Below, piece after piece: positions 3,145-47,530 of a stretch of 54,643 bases of DNA. The notes beneath the pieces were generated by a model. That model did no database searches. It saw only the letters and a list, made by a program, of their open reading frames with translations, and was not told where the DNA came from. Each line of letters begins with the position of its first letter. Position 1 is the first letter of the stretch. The position numbers and the translations under genes were made by a program. Source of the stretch: Deltaproteobacteria bacterium (lineage in GTDB: Bacteria; Bdellovibrionota_B; Oligoflexia; Oligoflexales; Bog-1112); the NCBI GenBank assembly GCA_016186945.1, contig JACPKR010000006.1, positions 1 through 54,643 of the forward strand, in the 5' to 3' direction.

Positions 3145-3345
3145 ATATAGTATTCGGGAAAAAGAATTTGTGGAGAGGACCTTTTTTTGAAAAATGGATC
3201 CCGCGGTCAAGCCGCGGGATGACAAAGTTCCCCTCCACACCTCCCCCCAAAAAACTTCAAATACTGAAGTTTTTGAAAAAGGGCTTGGGGAAATGACTTT
3301 TTTCAAAAAGTTTTTCCCCAAATTGATTATCTTGAACAGTATAGA
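3145..3345. repeat. Dispersed element B, full copy
   Basis: About 200 bp starting ATAGTATTCGGGAAAAAG and ending CTTGAACAGTATAG. It contains the ATCCCGCGG/CCGCGGGAT hairpin, the run CCTCCCCCCAAAAAACTT, an AAAACTTCAAATACTGAAGTTTT hairpin (split arms AAACTTCA and TGAAGTTT) and a TTTTTTCAAAAAG stretch. Related copies lie at 1, 33104, 39462, 40582 and 47362. This copy separates the divergent genes at 3123 and 3406, so their promoters must lie in or next to it. Confidence 0.9.
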
Positions 3346-8968: not shown

Positions 8969-9046
8969 ATGCCGTACATTGCCCCCGAACTGGTTATCAT
9001 TCCTAGCGTTAGCAATGTTGATTCAAACTGCTGCACAGCTTGCTAG
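8969..9046 (+). CDS. Candidate RiPP precursor peptide, 25 aa, C-terminal CCTAC
   Basis: A 25-codon ORF that reads MPYIAPELVIIP, then SVSNVDSN, then CCTAC and a TAG stop. AAAGGA at 8956-8961 is an excellent ribosome binding site seven bases before the ATG. The peptide is a plausible short leader (ELVIIP is a likely strand for docking to an RRE domain) followed by a Cys-rich C-terminal core with Cys21, Cys22 and Cys25. It sits directly upstream of a radical SAM enzyme carrying a PqqD-like RRE and of a second radical SAM/SPASM enzyme, the normal place for a RiPP precursor. A different-frame ORF across this region (8937-9125) has no such start signal. I know no RiPP family with this exact sequence, so the chemistry is unknown; Cys thioether formation would be the natural first guess. 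Confidence 0.75.
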   Translation: MPYIAPELVIIPSVSNVDSNCCTAC

Positions 9047-9051
9047 AGTGC

Positions 9052-9123
9052 TAATGCAGTTTCTGAAGCCTTCTGCTTTAAAAAAAAAGGCCTACTCCGC
9101 AATTTCTGCATTATTTTTGTTCT
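9052..9123 (+). terminator. Attenuator-like hairpin between precursor and enzyme genes
   Basis: TAATGCAG (9052-9059) pairs perfectly with CTGCATTA (9106-9113), with an inner GCCTT/AAGGC stem (9068-9072 with 9087-9091). TTTTTGTTCT follows at once. This is an intrinsic terminator just after the precursor stop. Partial read-through would make far more precursor than enzyme, a common arrangement in RiPP operons. Confidence 0.6.
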
Positions 9124-9145
9124 AAAAACGTTTGTTCTAAAAACG
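9116..9145 (+). repeat. Tandem 15-bp direct repeat upstream of radical SAM gene
   Basis: TTTGTTCTAAAAACG occurs twice head to tail (9116-9130 and 9131-9145), ending 18 bases before the first radical SAM start codon. The first copy forms the T-tract of the preceding hairpin, so the duplication could alter terminator strength or be a regulator site. Confidence 0.65.
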
Positions 9146-9163
9146 CTAATGTAAGTAAAAGAT

Positions 9164-10381
9164 ATGAAACACTTTATCGCTTACAAATTTAACAGATGGG
9201 TTTACGTGCGCCCCATAGGTGATACCCTCGCCTTTTACGATAGTCGTGACAAACATTTTCGCTATGTTAATTCCATGGGCAGGATGATCTTCGAGGAAAC
9301 TCGATCTAATGATTCATTGGCCTCGCTTTGTGAACGTTTGCATCGGAGGTTTTCCAACGTAGACGTAGCAATGTTGCAACGCGACGTCAGAACGTTCGTT
9401 GATCGCTTTACCGGTGTTGTGCAAAATATTGGACGAAGTTTCATTCATTCTTTTGAAGAAGCTGAAGACGTGGATTCATTTAAGCATGCCACTGAGCACT
9501 ATATCCAGCAAGGAAAACCGTTAGAGGTTGGAATTGAACTTACAGGCCTGTGTAATTGTGCTTGCGTTCATTGTTACCTTCCACGCGCAAAATTTCAGTG
9601 GACGCCCGAACAATTTGCAAAGGTTGCCGCTGACCTTCAACAAGAGAACGCTTTATTCATCTCCTTAACAGGCGGCGAGATTTTCCTTAACCGCGGTATC
9701 TGGGAAATACTTAATATCTCGACTAAACACTTTCCAACAGCCCTATTGACCAATGGAACTCTCTTTAATGATGAGAAAATTCATCGTTTGGCTAAATACC
9801 CTCTCGAGTGTGTAAATATCAGTATATATGGCCATTCCAGTAACGTTCATGATGCTGTAACCAAAGTAAAGGGTTCATACGAGCGTACGATGAACACCGT
9901 GCGTAAATTGAAATCGCTGGGAGTGAACGTTTGGGGACGTTACGTACTGATGAAAAACAATATTCATGATTTTGAGTCATTCTGTGTGGGTTGGCAAAGA
10001 GAAGGTTTGCCATACAATGTCACTTATCAGTTACAAAATGACTATAATAACAAAATTGATGTCCAATGCCTTCGAGTCAGTCCAACGCAAATCGCCCACT
10101 TCATTAGGACTGGACTATTAAAACCACCACGTGAAAAATATTGCTTTGCCGGTATCACTAAGTGTCGAATCAACCACCAAGGCGATTTTTACGCTTGTGA
10201 ATTGCTGCCTATATCAAATGGTAACGTCCACTTGGATGGTTTTAGCAGGGTATGGCAGAAGAGTAATAAACGGCCACGCCCAACCTCGTCCGGATGTCCA
10301 GGATTTGGATACCTCGAACATGGTAATTTCAAGGAAAATTACACTTACACAAGCAAGATTCTCGAGGCGGTCAATGCGTAA
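9164..10381 (+). CDS. Radical SAM peptide-modifying enzyme with N-terminal PqqD-like RRE
   Basis: 405 residues. Residues about 10-90 look like a PqqD/RRE domain (WVYVRPIGDTLAFYDSRD, NSMGRMIFEE, then a helical LCERLHRRF and DVRTFVDRF), the fold that binds RiPP leaders. The radical SAM core follows with the 4Fe-4S motif C130-x3-C134-x2-C137, the SAM-binding LTGGEIF and SIYGHSSNVHDAVTKVKGSY. The C-terminal part has scattered Cys (KYCF, TKCR, YACEL, SGCPGF) resembling a reduced SPASM/twitch domain. Predicted to modify the 25-aa peptide encoded upstream. Its stop overlaps the next gene by eight bases. The ribosome binding site is weak. The reaction type cannot be read from sequence. Confidence 0.9.
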   Translation: MKHFIAYKFNRWVYVRPIGDTLAFYDSRDKHFRYVNSMGRMIFEETRSNDSLASLCERLHRRFSNVDVAMLQRDVRTFVDRFTGVVQNIGRSFIHSFEEAEDVDSFKHATEHYIQQGKPLEVGIELTGLCNCACVHCYLPRAKFQWTPEQFAKVAADLQQENALFISLTGGEIFLNRGIWEILNISTKHFPTALLTNGTLFNDEKIHRLAKYPLECVNISIYGHSSNVHDAVTKVKGSYERTMNTVRKLKSLGVNVWGRYVLMKNNIHDFESFCVGWQREGLPYNVTYQLQNDYNNKIDVQCLRVSPTQIAHFIRTGLLKPPREKYCFAGITKCRINHQGDFYACELLPISNGNVHLDGFSRVWQKSNKRPRPTSSGCPGFGYLEHGNFKENYTYTSKILEAVNA

Positions 10382-10952
10382 CCGCTTTCTATTTGAAACC
10401 AAGCGCCTTTGTATTCGGCATATAGAGGTTGCCGATCTTGATGCTTTTCCGCAGATTTATGCCCATAACCTTCAGACAGCTAGCCTGCTTGATACCGCGA
10501 AGTTACCAATGAGTATAGAACAGAAACGATCCTCCATCGAGCATGACATTTTAAATGGGGCTGGCAATGGCTTTATCTTCGTAGCTTTTTTCAAAGAAAA
10601 AAACAGCTATATCGGCTGTGCTGGTTTGCAAAGGATCTCTTGGTCTAATTCTTGCGGGTATATGGGAGCAAATATTGAGCCTAAAATGCAGGGCCAAAGG
10701 TTGGGGAGCGAGTTTTGTTTCGGGGTTCTTTTTTATGCATTTCGTGAGCTTAACCTCAATCGCGTCGAGAGCCGTATATTGGTATCGAATCGTGCCAGCA
10801 TTAGTCTGTTTGCTAATTTAGGAGCTGTCCACGAAGGGACGCTGCGACAAGCTCAATATGTTAATGGTACCTATTGTGATGTTCATTTTATGGCAGTACT
10901 GAAATCCGAATTCGAGAAAAAATATGAATCTTGCGCAAAAGTCTACTTCTAA
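10374..10952 (+). CDS. GNAT acetyltransferase, RimJ/RimL type
   Basis: 192 residues. RimJ/RimL-like layout: FETKRLCIRHIEVADLDAFPQIY at the N-terminus, GNGFIFVAFFKEKNSYIGCAGLQ strands, an acetyl-CoA loop in the region EPKMQGQRLGSEFC, then LNLNRVESRILVSNRASISLFANLGAVHEGTLRQ. The start is the ATG overlapping the end of the first radical SAM gene by eight bases; a longer frame upstream only reads through that gene. It overlaps the next gene by 29 bases. In this setting it could acetylate the modified peptide, either as maturation or to protect the producer. It could also be unrelated to the core chemistry. Confidence 0.88.
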   Translation: MRNRFLFETKRLCIRHIEVADLDAFPQIYAHNLQTASLLDTAKLPMSIEQKRSSIEHDILNGAGNGFIFVAFFKEKNSYIGCAGLQRISWSNSCGYMGANIEPKMQGQRLGSEFCFGVLFYAFRELNLNRVESRILVSNRASISLFANLGAVHEGTLRQAQYVNGTYCDVHFMAVLKSEFEKKYESCAKVYF

Positions 10953-12084
10953 GTCTTGGTTTGCTGAGAGAATCTACGGTGGTTATCGCTTCCGTGTCTA
11001 CGCCGATGGTTCGTTAGGCGGACGACTTGAATGCATAGGTACTGATGGCGAAATCTATGATAGTCAAAATTCTTTTGATCTTTTGCAAAAAATTACGTTA
11101 AGAAGCGAGTCCTTGTGGAAAGGAGCAATAGAGCCTACGGCGCGCTGTAACGTGAAGTGCATTCACTGCTATGTCGGTGATGAACGTTTCCAGAAAGTCG
11201 ATGAATTGAAAGTACCGGAAGTCGAAGCTGTTATGGATCAGCTTTTGGCGCGCAATTGCTTATATCTTACCCTCACTGGTGGCGAATTCTTTGTACGTCC
11301 TGATGCCTTGCTTCTCGCTAAAATGGCGGTAAACAAAGGTTTCGCTACCATGATCCAGAGTAATGGTTCACTGATTCGTGAACATACAGCGGTCGCTCTC
11401 GCTGAATTGCCTATCTGCGCAATGGAGGTCAGTGTTTATGGTTTAACTCCTGAGGTCCACGACGCAGTCACAAATATCAAAGGCTCCTATAAGCGTACGA
11501 TCAGTGGATTGAAAAACTTACGCAAGTACAATGTTCCTACAGGTATAAAGTTCGTTATTACTCAGCCGAGCGCCCATCAAGCTCGTGAGGCTAAAAAGTG
11601 GGGCGATGAAATCGGCCTGCCATATACGATTTCCCCCCAAATGGTTCCAGCACGCGATGGTAGTAATAGCAACGAGCAAACTGACGGTTTTTGCAATTAC
11701 GTGATCACAGCAATAGCCGACGTTGCAAATAAGGGGCAGGTCGATATTCAGAAAAATTTGTCCTATCGCCGCAATTGTAAACCAGGTATCAATCGTGTTT
11801 GCATATCATCAATCGGCAAGGTTAAACCGTGCGAATTTCTACCGATGGAATTGGCTGACCTTCGTGTTGAGACTATGAGCGACGCTTGGAACAAAAATGA
11901 ATGGAAAGAATTTCGCGAGGAAATTTACGCACCACGTGAGGGTTGTAGTGGCTGTTCAGCAAAAAGTTATTGTCACGTGTGTCCAGCAGCTGCGTATCTC
12001 ATGGGTGAAAGCTTCGTGGCTCAACCGAAACGCGGATGTACTACTAGTTATGAGTTCAAGGAACTTTGGGAGAAAAATCTGTGA
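10924..12084 (+). CDS. Radical SAM/SPASM peptide-modifying enzyme
   Basis: 386 residues. An N-terminal ~65-residue strand-rich region (YGGYRFRVYADGSLGGRLE) is not clearly PqqD-like. The radical SAM motif is C75-x3-C79-x2-C82 (RCNVKCIHC), followed by LTGGEFFVRPD and VSVYGLTPEVHDAVTNIKGSYKRT, very like the first enzyme. The C-terminus is a full SPASM domain binding auxiliary Fe-S clusters: RNCKPG, VCISSIGKVKPCEF, GCSGCSAKSYCHVCPAA and KRGC. SPASM enzymes install thioether, C-C or other crosslinks in peptides. It presumably acts with the PqqD-bearing enzyme, which could present the substrate. The two enzymes share local motifs and may derive from a common ancestor. Confidence 0.92.
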   Translation: MNLAQKSTSKSWFAERIYGGYRFRVYADGSLGGRLECIGTDGEIYDSQNSFDLLQKITLRSESLWKGAIEPTARCNVKCIHCYVGDERFQKVDELKVPEVEAVMDQLLARNCLYLTLTGGEFFVRPDALLLAKMAVNKGFATMIQSNGSLIREHTAVALAELPICAMEVSVYGLTPEVHDAVTNIKGSYKRTISGLKNLRKYNVPTGIKFVITQPSAHQAREAKKWGDEIGLPYTISPQMVPARDGSNSNEQTDGFCNYVITAIADVANKGQVDIQKNLSYRRNCKPGINRVCISSIGKVKPCEFLPMELADLRVETMSDAWNKNEWKEFREEIYAPREGCSGCSAKSYCHVCPAAAYLMGESFVAQPKRGCTTSYEFKELWEKNL

Positions 12085-12203
12085 AAAAGTTCATCCTTGC
12101 CGCCATTACCATGTTAGCTACAGCTGCGGCTGAAACGAGTTTGGCAGAATTCTATCTTTTTGCGATCTATGAATTGGTGCTTGCAAGAATTGGGGCTTCA
12201 TGA
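12081..12203 (+). CDS. Small 40-aa signal-peptide-like or membrane peptide in the RiPP operon
   Basis: Starts with GTG in a GTGA overlap with the radical SAM/SPASM stop and ends in an ATGA overlap with the next gene, so both junctions show four-base translational coupling. The peptide is MKKFILAAITMLATAAAETS, then LAEFYLFAIYELVLARIGAS. The first half has the form of a signal peptide (two Lys, hydrophobic core, Ala-rich end). The second half is hydrophobic with acidic residues. It contains no Cys. It could be a secreted helper, an immunity peptide, a small membrane partner of the transporter, or a second precursor. It is too short for most gene callers. Confidence 0.6.
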   Translation: MKKFILAAITMLATAAAETSLAEFYLFAIYELVLARIGAS

Positions 12204-12922
12204 AGAATAGTAGGCAGTTAATTCTTATTCTTTTGCTCCATGTCTCGCTTTGTTACACATATGCGTTTCTATCTTTCCTCGGACCACTTATTGTACTGGT
12301 TACTATTGCACTGATTATCCGTAGCCCGAGTAGATTGGGATTCTCCTGGACTAAGCTTGATGCTCTGAGTTTTGTCCTCACGGGAATCGTCACCGCCCTA
12401 TTGGCATTCTACCTGGGACGAACTCTCGATATTACCTTGTGGTATCATGTCTTCTCTGGAAGTTCGATCGCTTATATATTGGGACAAACCCTTTGTGAAG
12501 AAATTTGCCTGGGCTTTCTTCCGATGCAATATCTAGCTGCAAGAATCGTCGGTTTCTTCCCGCGCTTTGTGACAGTAATAGCTATGAGCCTGACGTTCGC
12601 CATCGGTCATCAACTCCTCTATACTCATCCTTGGCGTATCCAGGCGGATCCTCTTAACCTTTCAGCTATTATAGGGCTGTTTCTTTTTGGAGCGCTGCGC
12701 TTTTTTTCTTATCTTGTTACGAAGAAGATCGCGATTGCGTGGGGAATCCATTTGACCTGGAATTTGTTCTTTATTGCTCCGGATCTTTATCATCGCGGGG
12801 AGCTGCTTAAAGAGCCTCAACGATTCCGGTTGCTATTTGGCGAACCACTCGTTTTTGTGACTCTTATTGGTGCGTTGGGGATTGTGCTATTGGCTGGGGC
12901 AAGACGTCGGCTTCAAACATGA
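12200..12922 (+). CDS. CPBP-type intramembrane protein (possible leader protease)
   Basis: 240 residues with about six to eight hydrophobic segments. Two of the three CPBP/Abi motifs are intact: F133-x3-H137 (FAIGH) and H184-x3-N188 (HLTWN). The first, normally EExxxR, reads E100-E101-I-C-L-G, so the Glu pair is kept but the Arg is replaced by Gly. CPBP proteins are Rce1-like membrane proteases found in many bacteriocin clusters as leader peptidases or immunity proteins. Both neighbouring junctions are ATGA overlaps. Removal of the short leader, or self-protection, are the likely roles. The missing Arg leaves activity uncertain. Confidence 0.82.
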   Translation: MKNSRQLILILLLHVSLCYTYAFLSFLGPLIVLVTIALIIRSPSRLGFSWTKLDALSFVLTGIVTALLAFYLGRTLDITLWYHVFSGSSIAYILGQTLCEEICLGFLPMQYLAARIVGFFPRFVTVIAMSLTFAIGHQLLYTHPWRIQADPLNLSAIIGLFLFGALRFFSYLVTKKIAIAWGIHLTWNLFFIAPDLYHRGELLKEPQRFRLLFGEPLVFVTLIGALGIVLLAGARRRLQT

Positions 12923-14013
12923 AATCACTAATTGCATCGCAAACCTTATTTACACTCGCGATGCAGTTTTTGGATCTCTGCATCCTAGTAAACGTTTTCG
13001 ATCGCAGCCATTCCGTTGATTTCACTATTCTGGTTTTTATTTGTCAGATTGTCGCGCCGCTCTTTTCCCTTGTGGTAATCACACCATTAATGAGGCGACA
13101 CGGGTGTTCTGCATTGACTATGATTTCTCTTGCTTTAAGTATCGTTGCGTTAGTGACATTGGCAATTGCTCTACATAACGAAGAGGTTAGAACGGTGCCA
13201 ATTTTAGGTGTTGTATTTTTCTTAGCATTCAGCAACGCTATTTATCGTCCATTGATTCAAGGTGCGATCCCAATTCTGTCTTCTAACTGTATGCATGACA
13301 TTGTTCGAGTTAGCATCTGGAAAAATATCGCTACTGTCATTGCGAAACCACTGGTGCCTTTGTTTGGTTTGATCGTAATTCCTTTGGATTGGATTCTTAT
13401 TGGAGTGGCACTGATTATCATTATATCGATCGCTTTGTTCCGCCCTCCCATGGAAACAAGAGCGAAGATCGCTGATCCTGGCCTCAATCTGTCACTCTTT
13501 TCGCCGATAATGTTCAAAGTTATTCCAATAGCAACACTGCTAGCCTCTGTCGTTCGCATGGGACTTCACCAAGATGTGGGGAAAATTTCACTGCATCTTG
13601 GTATCACGTTTTCGAGTTTTACATTCGGTGTTTTATTGGGTCTTTGGAACAGGACGCTTCGGCGTCTCTCGCTACTGATTGGATTGATCGGTGTGTTGTT
13701 TGCTTTTAGTGGATTCCAGTCTCTGCCATTTTTTGTGACTTTGGTGGCGGGGGTGTTGTTTTCTGTCGTTGACATCTCGTTGAATTCGGAAATTGCCAGA
13801 ATTGTCGATTATGTCTCCAGAGTAAGAGCATTCACGGCACTCATGGTCGCAAGTGCGATTGTTCCGGCAGTTATATTGGCACTGACCAATGTCCTAGCGA
13901 AACGAATTGAGGGTGATTGGTTCGACTGGGGTTTATCGTTGTTGGCAATTGCAGTAACCGTTGTACAGATAAAAAGAATACTGCCGGAAGGGTTTTTCAT
14001 GGCTCGGGTTTGA
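12919..14013 (+). CDS. MFS-type transporter, likely peptide exporter
   Basis: 364 residues with about ten to twelve hydrophobic helices (for example TILVFICQIVAPLFSLVVI, WILIGVALIIIISIALF, LLIGLIGVLFAFSG, FDWGLSLLAIAVTVVQI). The general shape, and a cytoplasmic charged loop near FRPPMETRAKIADPG, fit a Major Facilitator Superfamily drug/efflux-type permease. No clear MFS signature A motif was seen, so the family is inferred from topology. It starts in an ATGA overlap with the CPBP gene and is the last gene of the RiPP operon, the natural place for an exporter of the mature product. Possibly shorter than a standard 12-helix MFS protein (about 390-400). Confidence 0.75.
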   Translation: MKSLIASQTLFTLAMQFLDLCILVNVFDRSHSVDFTILVFICQIVAPLFSLVVITPLMRRHGCSALTMISLALSIVALVTLAIALHNEEVRTVPILGVVFFLAFSNAIYRPLIQGAIPILSSNCMHDIVRVSIWKNIATVIAKPLVPLFGLIVIPLDWILIGVALIIIISIALFRPPMETRAKIADPGLNLSLFSPIMFKVIPIATLLASVVRMGLHQDVGKISLHLGITFSSFTFGVLLGLWNRTLRRLSLLIGLIGVLFAFSGFQSLPFFVTLVAGVLFSVVDISLNSEIARIVDYVSRVRAFTALMVASAIVPAVILALTNVLAKRIEGDWFDWGLSLLAIAVTVVQIKRILPEGFFMARV

Positions 14014-18428: not shown

Positions 18429-19012
18429 GAGAGTTAGATCTGTCGAAACAAAGATACACTTGCCTCGCGTCGGATGATTAACAAGGACGAAGCGTACAAG
18501 GTGGCCTACTGGATCCCAGACAAGGTCAATTGTGTAGTAGAGAAGATTGACTTCGATTTCACCGTAGACAGGGCTTGGATCCCTGATGAATTCTGCTGTT
18601 TTGAACAGATCAGAAAATCGAACTTATTCCCCATACTTTCTCGGTCTCCCGCGACGTCGCTTTTCAGGTTGAATAGCAGCACGATAAGCAACAGCCCCAC
18701 TGTTATGCCATCCCCTACAAGAACTAGCTTGCCATTTATACGCATTGTTGGGAAAAATCGTATGACGATCTGCAACCATATCTGCGCCAGGGTATCGAGT
18801 TTGATGGCGCCTGTGTGCATGTTGTCGAGAAGGCGTTGATAGAATCGCGGTGAGATCCCTAAAACTCGCACCAGACTCGTTACGCCTGCAGAGTCCGATC
18901 GGATTGAGATGCCAGCAACAATAGTGGCAAACCAAAGAAAGGAGCGCTTACGTGAAAATGCAGGACGGAGCTGACAGACAAAATTCCACCACTGAAGCCA
19001 AAGTGCCATCAC
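18429..19012 (-). pseudogene. Broken DDE transposase remnant
   Basis: The N-terminal part is intact (WLQWWNFVCQLRPAFSRKRS, IRSDSAGVTSLVRVLGISP, AIKLDTLAQIWLQIVIRFFP, NGKLVLVGDG, a DDE-type motif) and then the frame breaks. A second frame carries EKRRRGRPRKYGE and a third carries RFSDLFKTAEFIRDPSPVYG, VDLVWDP-like TIDLVWDPVGHLVRFVLVNH, PTRGKCIFVSTDLTL. These parts follow the order of a transposase family with a GRPRKYG linker, so an internal deletion and frameshifts have destroyed it. The 3' end is replaced by the oxidoreductase fragment. No intact inverted repeats were identified. Confidence 0.8.
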
Positions 19013-19101
19013 ATGTCCTTCAAGGAGATAAGTCTTTAACTGGAAACTTAGGACGTATGATATCCTCTCTCGCCTCTCTTTTCACGGTAAAGAGAGTTCC
19101 A

Positions 19102-19434
19102 ATGACAGATTGGCTCGATACCCCTGAAGGCAAGGCCTTTGAGGACCTTTCTGGCCGAGTTTATGACATCCTTGATGTTTTCAAATTAGACGCGGAAAAG
19201 CGGTTCTTTGTTGATGGCAAACAAAAATTGATGTCGCTTGATCAGGTGATACAAAAATTGGCTGACGACCTAGAACAAGAGACCTCCGTTATTAGAGAGT
19301 TTGTACTCATGTGGATGTATGAGGCTAGCAATGCACTAGACCCTGAGTTTGAGGGAACTCAAGAACATGTCGACATTGCGCAAAATTGGGCTGACGATGA
19401 ATGCCAAAAATACGGAATTGTTCTTCGTTTTTAA
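19102..19434 (+). CDS. Hypothetical protein
   Basis: 110 residues from ATG 19102 (AGAGAG five bases upstream): MTDWLDTPEGKAFEDLSGRV, YDILDVFKLDAEKRFFVDG, a helical LDQVIQKLADDLEQETSVIREF and a C-terminus with many acidic residues. A longer frame from 18952 would overlap the transposase remnant, so a start at 19057 or 19102 is more credible. No family recognised and no signal peptide. It lies in the mobile zone and may be cargo or a small accessory gene. Confidence 0.5.
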   Translation: MTDWLDTPEGKAFEDLSGRVYDILDVFKLDAEKRFFVDGKQKLMSLDQVIQKLADDLEQETSVIREFVLMWMYEASNALDPEFEGTQEHVDIAQNWADDECQKYGIVLRF

Positions 19435-19567
19435 CGATAGAACTCCGGACTCTCAAGTAATTTAAGGTAGTTACGAATTATCCTCGTTATCCCCTTAAGT
19501 AAAAAGACTTTTTGCCGATTCTACACCGCGATGAGACTTCACAAAATAAACACGAAAGGCTGAGGAG

Positions 19568-20040
19568 ATGCGCTGCCCCCCCCCGCACGAAGACTTCTTG
19601 AACTTTCTTTGTTCTTCTTAGTTTTAGTTTCAGTAATCCAATGCAAGACACTTCCATCTAAAGAAAATGTAGAACAACAAAAAAAGAATCTCGACGTAGA
19701 CAACGAACTTTCAATAAAAGAACGCGAAGGGATTCATCTGGTTAGTAACCCAATGGGTCATGATTTAATATTATCGATTTGTAAGGATTCGATATGCAGT
19801 GAAGATATCTCTTCCCAAGTTGAGTATCCCTTAATCTTATTTAGCGATGGAGATTATAGCGTCTCCATTAGTGAATGCTCCTTCAATGTTCAAGAAAACT
19901 ATTCATGTATAGAAAAATATCGTACCGTACTCCAAAATGTTAGCAAAATGTCAGTTGCCTCTACATTTCGTTTTTTTTTTGATACTGTAATTTCCAAAAA
20001 AATAGGCTTAAATCTTTATTCGCGGGGAAAAGACAAGTGA
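19568..20040 (+). CDS. Possible phase-variable lipoprotein, out of frame at a C9 tract
   Basis: AAAGG (19555-19559) precedes an ATG at 19568 by eight bases, and seven bases into the ORF there is a run of nine C (19576-19584). As sequenced, this frame stops after 17 codons (TAG at 19619). Adding one C, or losing two, would join the ATG to the long frame and give a lipoprotein N-terminus ending LELSLFFLVLVSVIQC. The rest (about 130 residues: ERE GIHLVSNPMG, SICKDSICSEDISS, DGDYSVSISECSF) is of unknown function with several Cys. The only alternative start is a TTG at 19609 without a ribosome binding site. Either a contingency gene in the OFF state, a pseudogene, or a sequencing error in the C run. 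Confidence 0.5.
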
Positions 20041-20054
20041 TTTTTCAGGGGTAG

Positions 20055-20191
20055 CTTACAGGCTCCGGAGTCGTTCAGGGTAGAGGCGTCGGGGTAGTCG
20101 TTCAGATTTTTCTTTCAAAATCAACTCACTCAAACATCGTCCCGCCTCGAAACCAAGCGAAAGGCCTGAGGACATATAGCCGGTGGCTAGA
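20055..20191 (-). pseudogene. Duplicated 3' end of the FAD oxidoreductase gene
   Basis: About 137 bp nearly identical to 21019-21155, which is the 3' end of the intact oxidoreductase gene on the same strand. The stop codon triplet is altered here. The two direct repeats enclose the hairpin repeat D and the toxin-antitoxin genes. Confidence 0.85.
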
Positions 20192-20203
20192 GAAGCCTCC
20201 GCG

Positions 20204-20274
20204 TTTGTCTTTTACTCGGCCCTAAAGGACCGAGTTTCTTTATCCTCGCGCTAAGGCGCTCGGAGTTTTTTGAT
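20204..20274 (+). repeat. Double-hairpin repeat D
   Basis: Two hairpins in a row: ACTCGGCCCTAAAGGACCGAGT and GAGCGCCTTAGCGC (here GCGCTAAGGCGCTC), followed by GGAGTTTTTTGAT. An inverted copy with almost the same sequence lies at 54314-54384. The T run after the second stem makes it able to act as an intrinsic terminator in this orientation. Confidence 0.75.
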
Positions 20275-20387
20275 AAAGAAACTTAACAGTCCTTAAAGGA
20301 AGAGAGGGTGCCAATGGATTTCTCGATTGTTGGGAAAACTTGACCGCGTTTCCGAATATGACTACAGTCATAACTATAGGAGAAAAC

Positions 20388-20627
20388 ATGCCTGCCATTC
20401 GAGTTTCAAAAGGAAGCTTAAAAGCACGGATGCTAGAGTATTTTAGGGAGGTTGAAAGAACAGGGACGGAGTTGATAGTCCTCGATCACAATAAGCCGGT
20501 CCTTCGAATCACTGCCATTGAAAGAGAGAAAAACACCGCAGGTGAGGTTTTCAGAAAAGATCGCGGAAAGATCAAATATCATGAAGACATCAATGCACCA
20601 ACAACTGACGAATGGGGGGATACCTGA
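20388..20627 (+). CDS. Antitoxin, Phd/YefM-like
   Basis: 79 residues starting MPAIRVSKGSLKARMLEYFR, with AGGAGA a few bases upstream. The N-terminal MPAIRVSKGSLKARMLEYFREVERTG resembles Phd/YefM (DNA-binding half), followed by the strand pair ELIVLDHNKPVLRITAIE and an acidic C-terminal tail (KYHEDINAPTTDEWGDT) that should wrap the toxin. The stop codon overlaps the toxin start as TGATG. It is expected to neutralise the PIN toxin and repress its own operon. Confidence 0.88.
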   Translation: MPAIRVSKGSLKARMLEYFREVERTGTELIVLDHNKPVLRITAIEREKNTAGEVFRKDRGKIKYHEDINAPTTDEWGDT

Positions 20628-21016
20628 TGTCCATTCTTCTGGATACCTGCGGGCTCCTTTGGTGGACACTCGATCCTGATCAGTTATCGCATGAAGCGTT
20701 GAAAGCTTGTGAAAAAATGGAGCGAGGCGAAGGTTTTGTCAGCTCAATCAGTCTGTGGGAGTTAAGCATCAAGGTAAAAAACAAGAAGCTCGACATGGGT
20801 ATCTCTATTGAAAAGTATGTCGATAAACTCTATCAGCTAGGCTATCTGAAAATATTACCGGTGGATGAGAAAGTCTGGTTGAAAAATCTTTCTCTCCCCT
20901 GGAGTCATCGAGACCCTGCTGACCGAACGATTGTAGCTACTGCAAAGATTAGAAATTATGGATTGGTAACATCGGACAAGAGAATACGCAAATTCTACGA
21001 AAAATGTATCTGGTAG
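20627..21016 (+). CDS. vapC: PIN-domain toxin, VapC-type
   Basis: 129 residues starting MSILLDTCGLLWWTLDPDQL. PIN-domain acidic residues are in place: Asp6 in LLDTCGLLW, Glu in SISLWELSIK, and the C-terminal pair in SHRDPADRTIVATA and TSDKRIRKF. VapC-type ribonucleases cut tRNA or rRNA and are held off by their antitoxin. The start codon overlaps the antitoxin stop. The pair sits between two direct repeats of the neighbouring oxidoreductase gene's 3' end, which suggests acquisition by recombination. Confidence 0.9.
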   Translation: MSILLDTCGLLWWTLDPDQLSHEALKACEKMERGEGFVSSISLWELSIKVKNKKLDMGISIEKYVDKLYQLGYLKILPVDEKVWLKNLSLPWSHRDPADRTIVATAKIRNYGLVTSDKRIRKFYEKCIW

Positions 21017-33104: not shown

Positions 33105-33299
33105 GTATTTGGGAAAAAGAATTTGTGGAGAGGACCTTTTTTGAAAAATGGATCCCGCGGTCAAGCCACGGGATGACAAAGTTCCCCTCCACTCCTCCCC
33201 CCAAAAAACTTTAAATGCTGAAGTTTTTGAAAAGGGGCTTGGGGAAATAACTTTTTTCAAAAAGTTTGTCCCCAAATTGATTATCTTGAACACTATAGG
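33104..33299. repeat. Dispersed element B, full copy
   Basis: AGTATTTGGGAAAAAGAATT through GGATCCCGCGGTCAAGCCAC (one mismatch in the hairpin stem) and AACTTTAAATGCTGAAGTTT to TTATCTTGAACACTATAG. It lies between the ddl stop and the LRR lipoprotein gene and reaches within 20 bases of that gene's start. Confidence 0.9.
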
Positions 33300-47383: not shown

Positions 47384-47530
47384 TTTGGGGACAAACTTTT
47401 TGAAAAAAGTTATTTCCCCAACCCCCTTTTCAAAAACTTTAGTATTTAAAGTTTTTTGGGGGGAGGTGTGGAGGGGAGCTTTTTTTCAAAAAAGGTCCTC
47501 TCCACAAATTCTTTTTCCCAAATACTCTAG
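47362..47530. repeat. Dispersed element B between convergent hemC and msrBA
   Basis: CTATAGTGTTCAATATAATT through the ACTTTAGTATTTAAAGTTTT hairpin to TCCCAAATACTCTAG. The hemC stop (47381) lies in its left end and the msrBA stop (47527) in its right end. With its hairpins and A/T runs it looks suited to terminate both transcripts. The CCGCGG hairpin is absent. Confidence 0.9.

Follow-up and report, generated by a model that had tools for sequence, protein, structure and literature searches.

A candidate RiPP operon combining two radical SAM enzymes with a PqqA-sized, cysteine-tailed peptide in a deltaproteobacterial genome

The window analysed here, meaning the whole stretch of DNA under study, comprises 54,643 nt and corresponds to positions 1-54,643 of contig JACPKR010000006.1 from a Deltaproteobacteria bacterium (GCA_016186945.1). 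ORF calling on this window revealed seven ORFs between positions 8969 and 14013, all on the + strand. The first (8969-9046) encodes a peptide of 25 residues, pep25 (MPYIAPELVIIPSVSNVDSNCCTAC), a precursor candidate that is preceded by the RBS AAAGGA and carries a YxxPxL motif and a Cys tail. It is followed by the gene of a 405-residue radical SAM protein (rSAM1, 9164-10381), by that of a GNAT acetyltransferase of 192 residues (10374-10952, with an ATG at 10374), and by the gene of a second radical SAM protein of 386 residues (rSAM2, 10924-12084). The remaining three ORFs encode a hydrophobic, signal-peptide-like product of 40 residues that begins with MKKFILAAITMLATAAAETS and uses a GTG start (12081-12203), a 240-residue homologue of CPBP (Rce1-like) intramembrane proteases (12200-12922), and a 12-helix membrane protein of 364 residues (12919-14013), which from a low-confidence model is a candidate MFS-like exporter. 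From rSAM1 onwards consecutive genes overlap by 8, 29, 4, 4 and 4 bases, which indicates one coupled operon, the sole gap among the six junctions being the 117 bases that separate pep25 from rSAM1. Both the seven-gene content and the overlap of 4 to 29 bases at five of the six junctions, as given in the initial annotation, were borne out by the ORF coordinates. Pfam searches recognised Radical_SAM in rSAM1 and rSAM2, traces of PqqD and SPASM in rSAM1, SPASM in rSAM2, Acetyltransf_3 in the GNAT protein (RimJ/RimL-like) and Rce1-like/CPBP in the protease homologue. A promoter scan gave signal at background level, and a partial terminator considered 3' of pep25 was rejected, its fold being no better than that of shuffled sequences (z 0.51).

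The motif of pep25, Y3-I-A-P6-E-L8, fits the pattern [Y/W]xxPx[L/V/I/A/F/Y] bound by PqqD-type RREs. Motifs of the YxxPx type constitute the site bound by discrete lasso RREs and are also found in PQQ precursors (PMC13381572), and a W/Y/LxxP-type recognition sequence has been reported for RREs of the PqqD and StsC types, the latter from a sactipeptide system (PMC12710340). The three Cys of pep25 (C21, C22 and C25) lie within its final five residues, which end in CCTAC, and the core, SNVDSNCCTAC, presents the Cys-bearing-core feature of sactipeptides and ranthipeptides, with aromatic residues absent from the C-terminal half of the peptide. Among 2217 small start-stop combinations of the window, only pep25 placed three Cys within the final seven residues, and the joint occurrence of the Cys tail and a YxxPx[LIVAFY] motif was seen 0 times in 40 simulated windows. 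The peptide is single copy in the genome, and neither a peptide search in plasmids nor a genome search found a homologue. An annotated PqqA from a Methylocystis plasmid (MTWSSPIIVEVCVGMEVTSYESAEI, W3xxP6xI8) and a pqqA-like ORF lying 5' of a Roseomonas pqqE (MAWKKPRVVEVCLGMEINCYEGAEV, W3xxP6xV8) are each 25 residues long; pep25 thus matches PqqA in length and leader and differs in having a Cys core. The motif, the RBS and the chance tests together provide a hallmark of RiPP clusters, a gene-encoded precursor with a recognisable leader adjoining its modifying enzymes. Judged from its sequence, pep25 is very probably the precursor of the operon's product, and confidence is high that the locus encodes a RiPP pathway with pep25 as substrate.

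In rSAM1 the radical SAM motif, CNCACVHC, lies at residues 130-137 and is preceded by a PqqD-like RRE spanning approximately residues 13-89. The PqqD match (PF05402, residues 30-81) was borderline in hmmscan (21.7 bits against a cut-off of 23.4) and above the cut-off in a search of the genome (24.6 against 23.4 bits), where it was the only PqqD match. The AlphaFold2 model of rSAM1 (pLDDT 65, with weak confidence over the N-terminal domain) starts with a beta-beta-alpha-alpha-alpha succession, and its closest solved structures are CteB, SkfB and SuiB, all of them RRE-containing RiPP maturases (E values of 1e-13 to 1e-14 over about 400 columns). The borderline profile match, backed by this predicted fold and by the acidobacterial relative described below, supports a predicted leader-recognising RRE in rSAM1. 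The C-terminal domain of the protein holds C327-X12-G-X4-C345 and C378, with the CX2CX5CX2C block missing, and by its sequence it is a Twitch-like truncation of SPASM. The operon presents, in rSAM1, the RRE-rSAM-SPASM/Twitch maturase feature of sactipeptide and ranthipeptide pathways.

The second enzyme, rSAM2, has its radical SAM motif (CNVKCIHC) at residues 75-82 and a complete SPASM domain of seven Cys (C285-X12-G-X4-C303 ... C341-X2-C-X5-C-X2-C ... C372), and no RRE was recognisable in it with Pfam profiles or by sequence inspection. Neither rSAM1 nor rSAM2 reached an NCBIfam equivalog cut-off; in the case of PqqE (381 bits) both fell far below, with 49.8 and 57 bits, respectively. In a phylogenetic tree the two enzymes occupied long branches whose placement was not resolved. 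In the thuricin CD system, TrnC, bearing an RRE and a seven-Cys SPASM domain, and the Twitch protein TrnD form a complex and achieve efficient cross-linking only jointly, TrnD's own radical SAM cluster being dispensable (PMC12093266). By analogy, rSAM1 and rSAM2 would rather probably cooperate as a two-enzyme pair. Two other loci also carry several radical SAM genes: a Macrococcoides bohemicum plasmid has a further example of a two-radical-SAM operon (L008:4385-8461; PqqD, rSAM, a 40-residue peptide MKKEFKKPTIIVKPTDNVIMANKSAQCSGSSSHIIIKKSE, rSAM and an ABC transporter), and an Indioceanicola plasmid (L009:6010-9865) carries a radical SAM gene, PqqD and two further radical SAM genes consecutively, with TIR and SIR2 family genes adjacent.

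Regarding the accessory genes, the 40-residue ORF is likely a real gene, since it spans the interval between rSAM2 and the CPBP gene and overlaps each of them by 4 bases; its product resembles a signal or TM peptide and has neither Cys nor an RRE motif. The CPBP homologue matches its Pfam family with 29.5 bits (cut-off 22.4). By eye, it keeps the EE, FxxxH and HxxxN motifs of the family, with EExxxG replacing EExxxR. The protein could remove the leader or confer immunity, the protease role being plausible if slightly short of an even chance, and the GNAT enzyme could cap the N-terminus of the product or protect the producer. For the last protein, no match was found in Pfam, NCBIfam, PHROG or the PDB, nor any match by sequence, so the label MFS derives from the 6+6 helices of a poor model (pLDDT 51) and from an MFS-like loop, LMRRHG. 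With the position of its gene, the helix arrangement makes it a candidate MFS-like exporter.

Searches for relatives, of limited sensitivity, found no close homologue of either enzyme in the other 57 genomes of the phylum (at 1e-35 for rSAM1 and 1e-20 for rSAM2) or in plasmids (at 1e-20). A first scan of genome contigs, with poorly conserved patterns, yielded nothing beyond distant radical SAM proteins, and a second returned only acidobacterial and Aminicenantes enzymes, also distant radical SAM proteins; a phage search gave one weak match, and a viral scan with an alignment of rSAM1 and its acidobacterial relative found none. This relative, the best full-length one, lies at locus L089 of one (G314) of 396 genomes of the acidobacterial phylum. 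It aligns with residues 13-404 of rSAM1 (E 1e-44, 29% identical), its PqqD domain is unambiguous (4.2e-11), and the Cys places C327, C334, C345 and C378 are common to both RRE-rSAM-Twitch proteins. Directly upstream of it lies a 24-residue peptide (MRKYVKPRAVSTKSGVACSTQSKK), preceded by AAAGGAGG, with a Y4xxP7 motif and a single internal Cys. The genes 3' of it, in overlapping frames, encode a protein without assignment, a second radical SAM/SPASM protein, a glycosyltransferase and a PLP enzyme, the last two in place of the GNAT, CPBP and transporter genes. The second radical SAM protein is only weakly like rSAM2 (4e-5) and may be an independent recruit. On sequence grounds, the grouping of a predicted tiny precursor, an RRE-rSAM-Twitch protein and a second radical SAM gene recurs in another phylum. 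Homologous clusters lacking a short Cys-ended ORF upstream had been named at the outset as an observation that would count against the proposal: a Cys-bearing peptide is indeed found upstream in the acidobacterial operon, but its Cys is neither terminal nor part of a CCxxC, unlike the CCTAC of pep25.

A Cys-bearing YxxP peptide also lies 5' of each of the more distantly related PqqD-rSAM fusions, which are carried by plasmids of E. coli and Photobacterium and by two viral contigs. An RBS-preceded YxxP peptide was present within 450 bp upstream of 5 of 6 PqqD-rSAM fusions, against 74 of 5280 random positions, and the sixth has a YxxP peptide without a matching RBS; these represent three independent cases rather than six, because the plasmid and viral fusions form one family. 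The plasmid and viral loci (L007:5755-7383, L006:5753-7374, L013:4812-6682 and L014:5670-7289; E. coli, Salmonella and Photobacterium plasmids and two IMG/VR contigs) constitute a mobile mini-RiPP cassette in their own right, in which a peptide such as MSYSKPTVLAKSSTYMAQCRPNSKPSGRPCNPPGPSGR stands directly 5' of a PqqD-rSAM/SPASM fusion. On the conjugative plasmids of E. coli and Photobacterium the peptide, which belongs to no NCBIfam family, is identical. The cassettes share with the operon the Cys-containing YxxP peptide directly upstream of the fusion, and they differ from it in having one radical SAM/SPASM enzyme (22-26% identical), a peptide of 38-46 residues with a C...PCNPPGPSGR tail, and an adjacent serine recombinase. 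A recurrent acidobacterial cluster (L074:6101-9119, L076:743-3716, L090, L091:5423-8510 and L092) was also observed, with a YxxP peptide ending in ...FE.MAL(S/A)CGK...C and genes that, named by eye, are S26/signal-peptidase-like, HPr-kinase-like, PqqD and radical SAM/SPASM.

The initial annotation had described the stretch as more AT-rich than its surroundings, in agreement with a GC content of 43.8% for 8969-14013 versus 48.7% for the rest of the window. This value is below those of all 395 other windows of equal length (minimum 45.9%), and GC3 in the operon is 0.42-0.44 versus a mean of 0.52. The low GC is consistent with horizontal acquisition; in relatives the genes for flagellin and mevalonate kinase lie apart, and because the order of flanking genes is not kept there, an empty site could not be demonstrated. 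GC is low in a second stretch as well, 18952-21016 (33.8% at 19609-20040), at the end of which lies a likely antitoxin/PIN-toxin pair, named by eye (20340-20627 and 20612-21016). Short dispersed repeats, possibly palindromic repeat elements, occur on both strands (approximately 3168-3296, 33123-33176 and 47439-47507); they encode MWRGPF..K-like peptides and some extend into ORF starts.

Taken as a whole, the locus is probably best explained as a RiPP operon in which an RRE-guided pair of radical SAM enzymes introduces Cys cross-links into a peptide that is then processed and exported. The initial proposal, of a RiPP-type operon built from a PqqD/RRE-radical SAM enzyme, a further radical SAM/SPASM enzyme and a very small precursor ending in Cys, is now backed independently by the RRE motif at the PqqA position, by the acidobacterial relative and by the CteB, SkfB and SuiB folds. 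In the proposed model, the N-terminal YxxPxL of pep25 would be held by the PqqD-type RRE of rSAM1, and rSAM1 and rSAM2 would work as a pair, probably as a complex, in which this single RRE serves both active sites. Radical cross-links, most likely thioethers, would then connect Cys21, Cys22 and Cys25 to carbons of neighbouring residues, although the likelihood of thioether chemistry itself is evenly poised. Removal of the leader, for which the CPBP protease is a possible candidate, would follow; the GNAT enzyme may acetylate the product or protect the producer, and the 12-helix protein would export the product.

The same genes could make a RiPP by other chemistry, such as C-C cyclophane formation or epimerisation, or with one active enzyme and a helper (rSAM2 or rSAM1), the Cys engaging in disulfides or metal binding. 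SuiB, which forms C-C cross-links, is among the closest folds, rSAM1, in its Twitch truncation, is reminiscent of TrnD, whose own radical SAM cluster is dispensable, and SPASM enzymes catalyse many reactions. This reading is nonetheless fairly unlikely: the C-terminal half of pep25, with its three Cys and its lack of aromatic residues, argues against Tyr/Trp cyclophanes, which makes Cys-to-carbon thioethers the likeliest product, and both the Twitch enzyme SkfB and SPASM sactisynthases form thioethers at Cys. It is also unlikely that pep25 is a PqqA-like scaffold whose CCTAC end the two enzymes rebuild, to be excised as a small molecule (a redox cofactor derived from thiols, or a metal chelator), the remainder being discarded as in PQQ biosynthesis. 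The length and motif position equal to those of PqqA would suit such a scaffold, as would the mere ten or so residues outside the leader-like half, the three thiols in five residues, fit for metal binding, and the GNAT and export-like proteins, appropriate for a small secreted compound. However, PqqB, PqqC and other PQQ-type enzymes are absent from the operon, beside which neither an uptake receptor nor a cofactor-using enzyme is encoded, and a small cross-linked peptide accounts for the same parts. Finally, the lack of a detected pep25 homologue in the plasmid peptide and genome searches, the 117-bp gap and the tight coupling of the 40-residue ORF between rSAM2 and CPBP might suggest that the pep25 ORF is fortuitous or encodes an unrelated leader peptide and that the operon otherwise modifies the 40-residue product or a protein encoded elsewhere, which is very improbable given that the motif, RBS, Cys tail and place of pep25 are jointly far beyond chance, that a peptide is likewise positioned in the acidobacterial operon, and that the 40-residue product is signal/TM-like.

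Radical SAM RiPPs are well known and many of their clusters are undescribed, 22 new pathways having been annotated in one example (PMC9062424). The combination had not been recognised initially, and likewise no paper with these parts was found in the open-access literature; as far as found there, the gene combination, the PqqA-sized Cys precursor and the division of RRE/Twitch and SPASM between two proteins are new. A bolder view, rather doubtful at present, is that of a new RiPP class in which a PqqA-sized, thiol-core precursor is acted upon by an obligate pair that splits leader binding (RRE and Twitch) from full SPASM catalysis, CCTAC becoming a small, acetylated and exported thioether-polycyclic compound or metal chelator, with an outline common to at least two phyla. 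Precursors this tiny are easily missed in annotation, and the rule of a YxxP peptide upstream of a PqqD-rSAM fusion offers a simple way to find further pathways, the enterobacterial plasmid cassettes included.

With the pqq system the operon shares a 25-residue precursor, [W/Y]xxPx(I/V/L) at residues 3-8, a PqqD-type RRE and a radical SAM/SPASM enzyme; the pqq core, however, is Glu/Tyr and is served by PqqB/C, whereas that of the operon is Cys, with two radical SAM enzymes. PQQ biosynthesis was rejected since pep25 has no Glu-x3-Tyr, both enzymes miss the PqqE cut-off and PqqB/C are lacking. A lasso peptide, despite the YxxP motif, was rejected as the operon has no gene for a B protease or an asparagine-synthetase-like cyclase, and the gene set does not match mycofactocin. 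Since not all of their defining features were found, the operon is not placed in the thuricin CD, PQQ or lasso families. The skf cluster of Bacillus subtilis has, like the operon, an RRE-rSAM-Twitch maturase, SkfB (PMC6231123), together with a putative protease gene, skfC, and export genes (PMC8172795), but it has a single radical SAM enzyme, a larger precursor and skfE/skfF for export, without counterparts of rSAM2 or GNAT. Thuricin CD (trn) and thuricin Z likewise combine a Cys-rich substrate with two radical SAM enzymes, one with a full seven-Cys SPASM domain and one Twitch, and need the enzyme complex for efficient cross-linking (PMC12093266). Thuricin CD is defined by an RRE and a full SPASM domain on one enzyme, with a Twitch partner carrying an RRE-like domain, a combination that the operon lacks: in trn both enzymes have an RRE, the canonical one in the SPASM-bearing TrnC, whereas in the operon it lies on the Twitch enzyme and none is recognisable on rSAM2, the precursor has just 25 residues, and GNAT and CPBP are additional. 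In the operon, a radical SAM substrate of the smallest type, that of PqqA size, is brought together with Cys chemistry and a two-enzyme arrangement, for which thuricin CD is the case that has been studied, with the domains distributed differently; the operon would probe whether the active sites of two radical SAM enzymes can share a single RRE.
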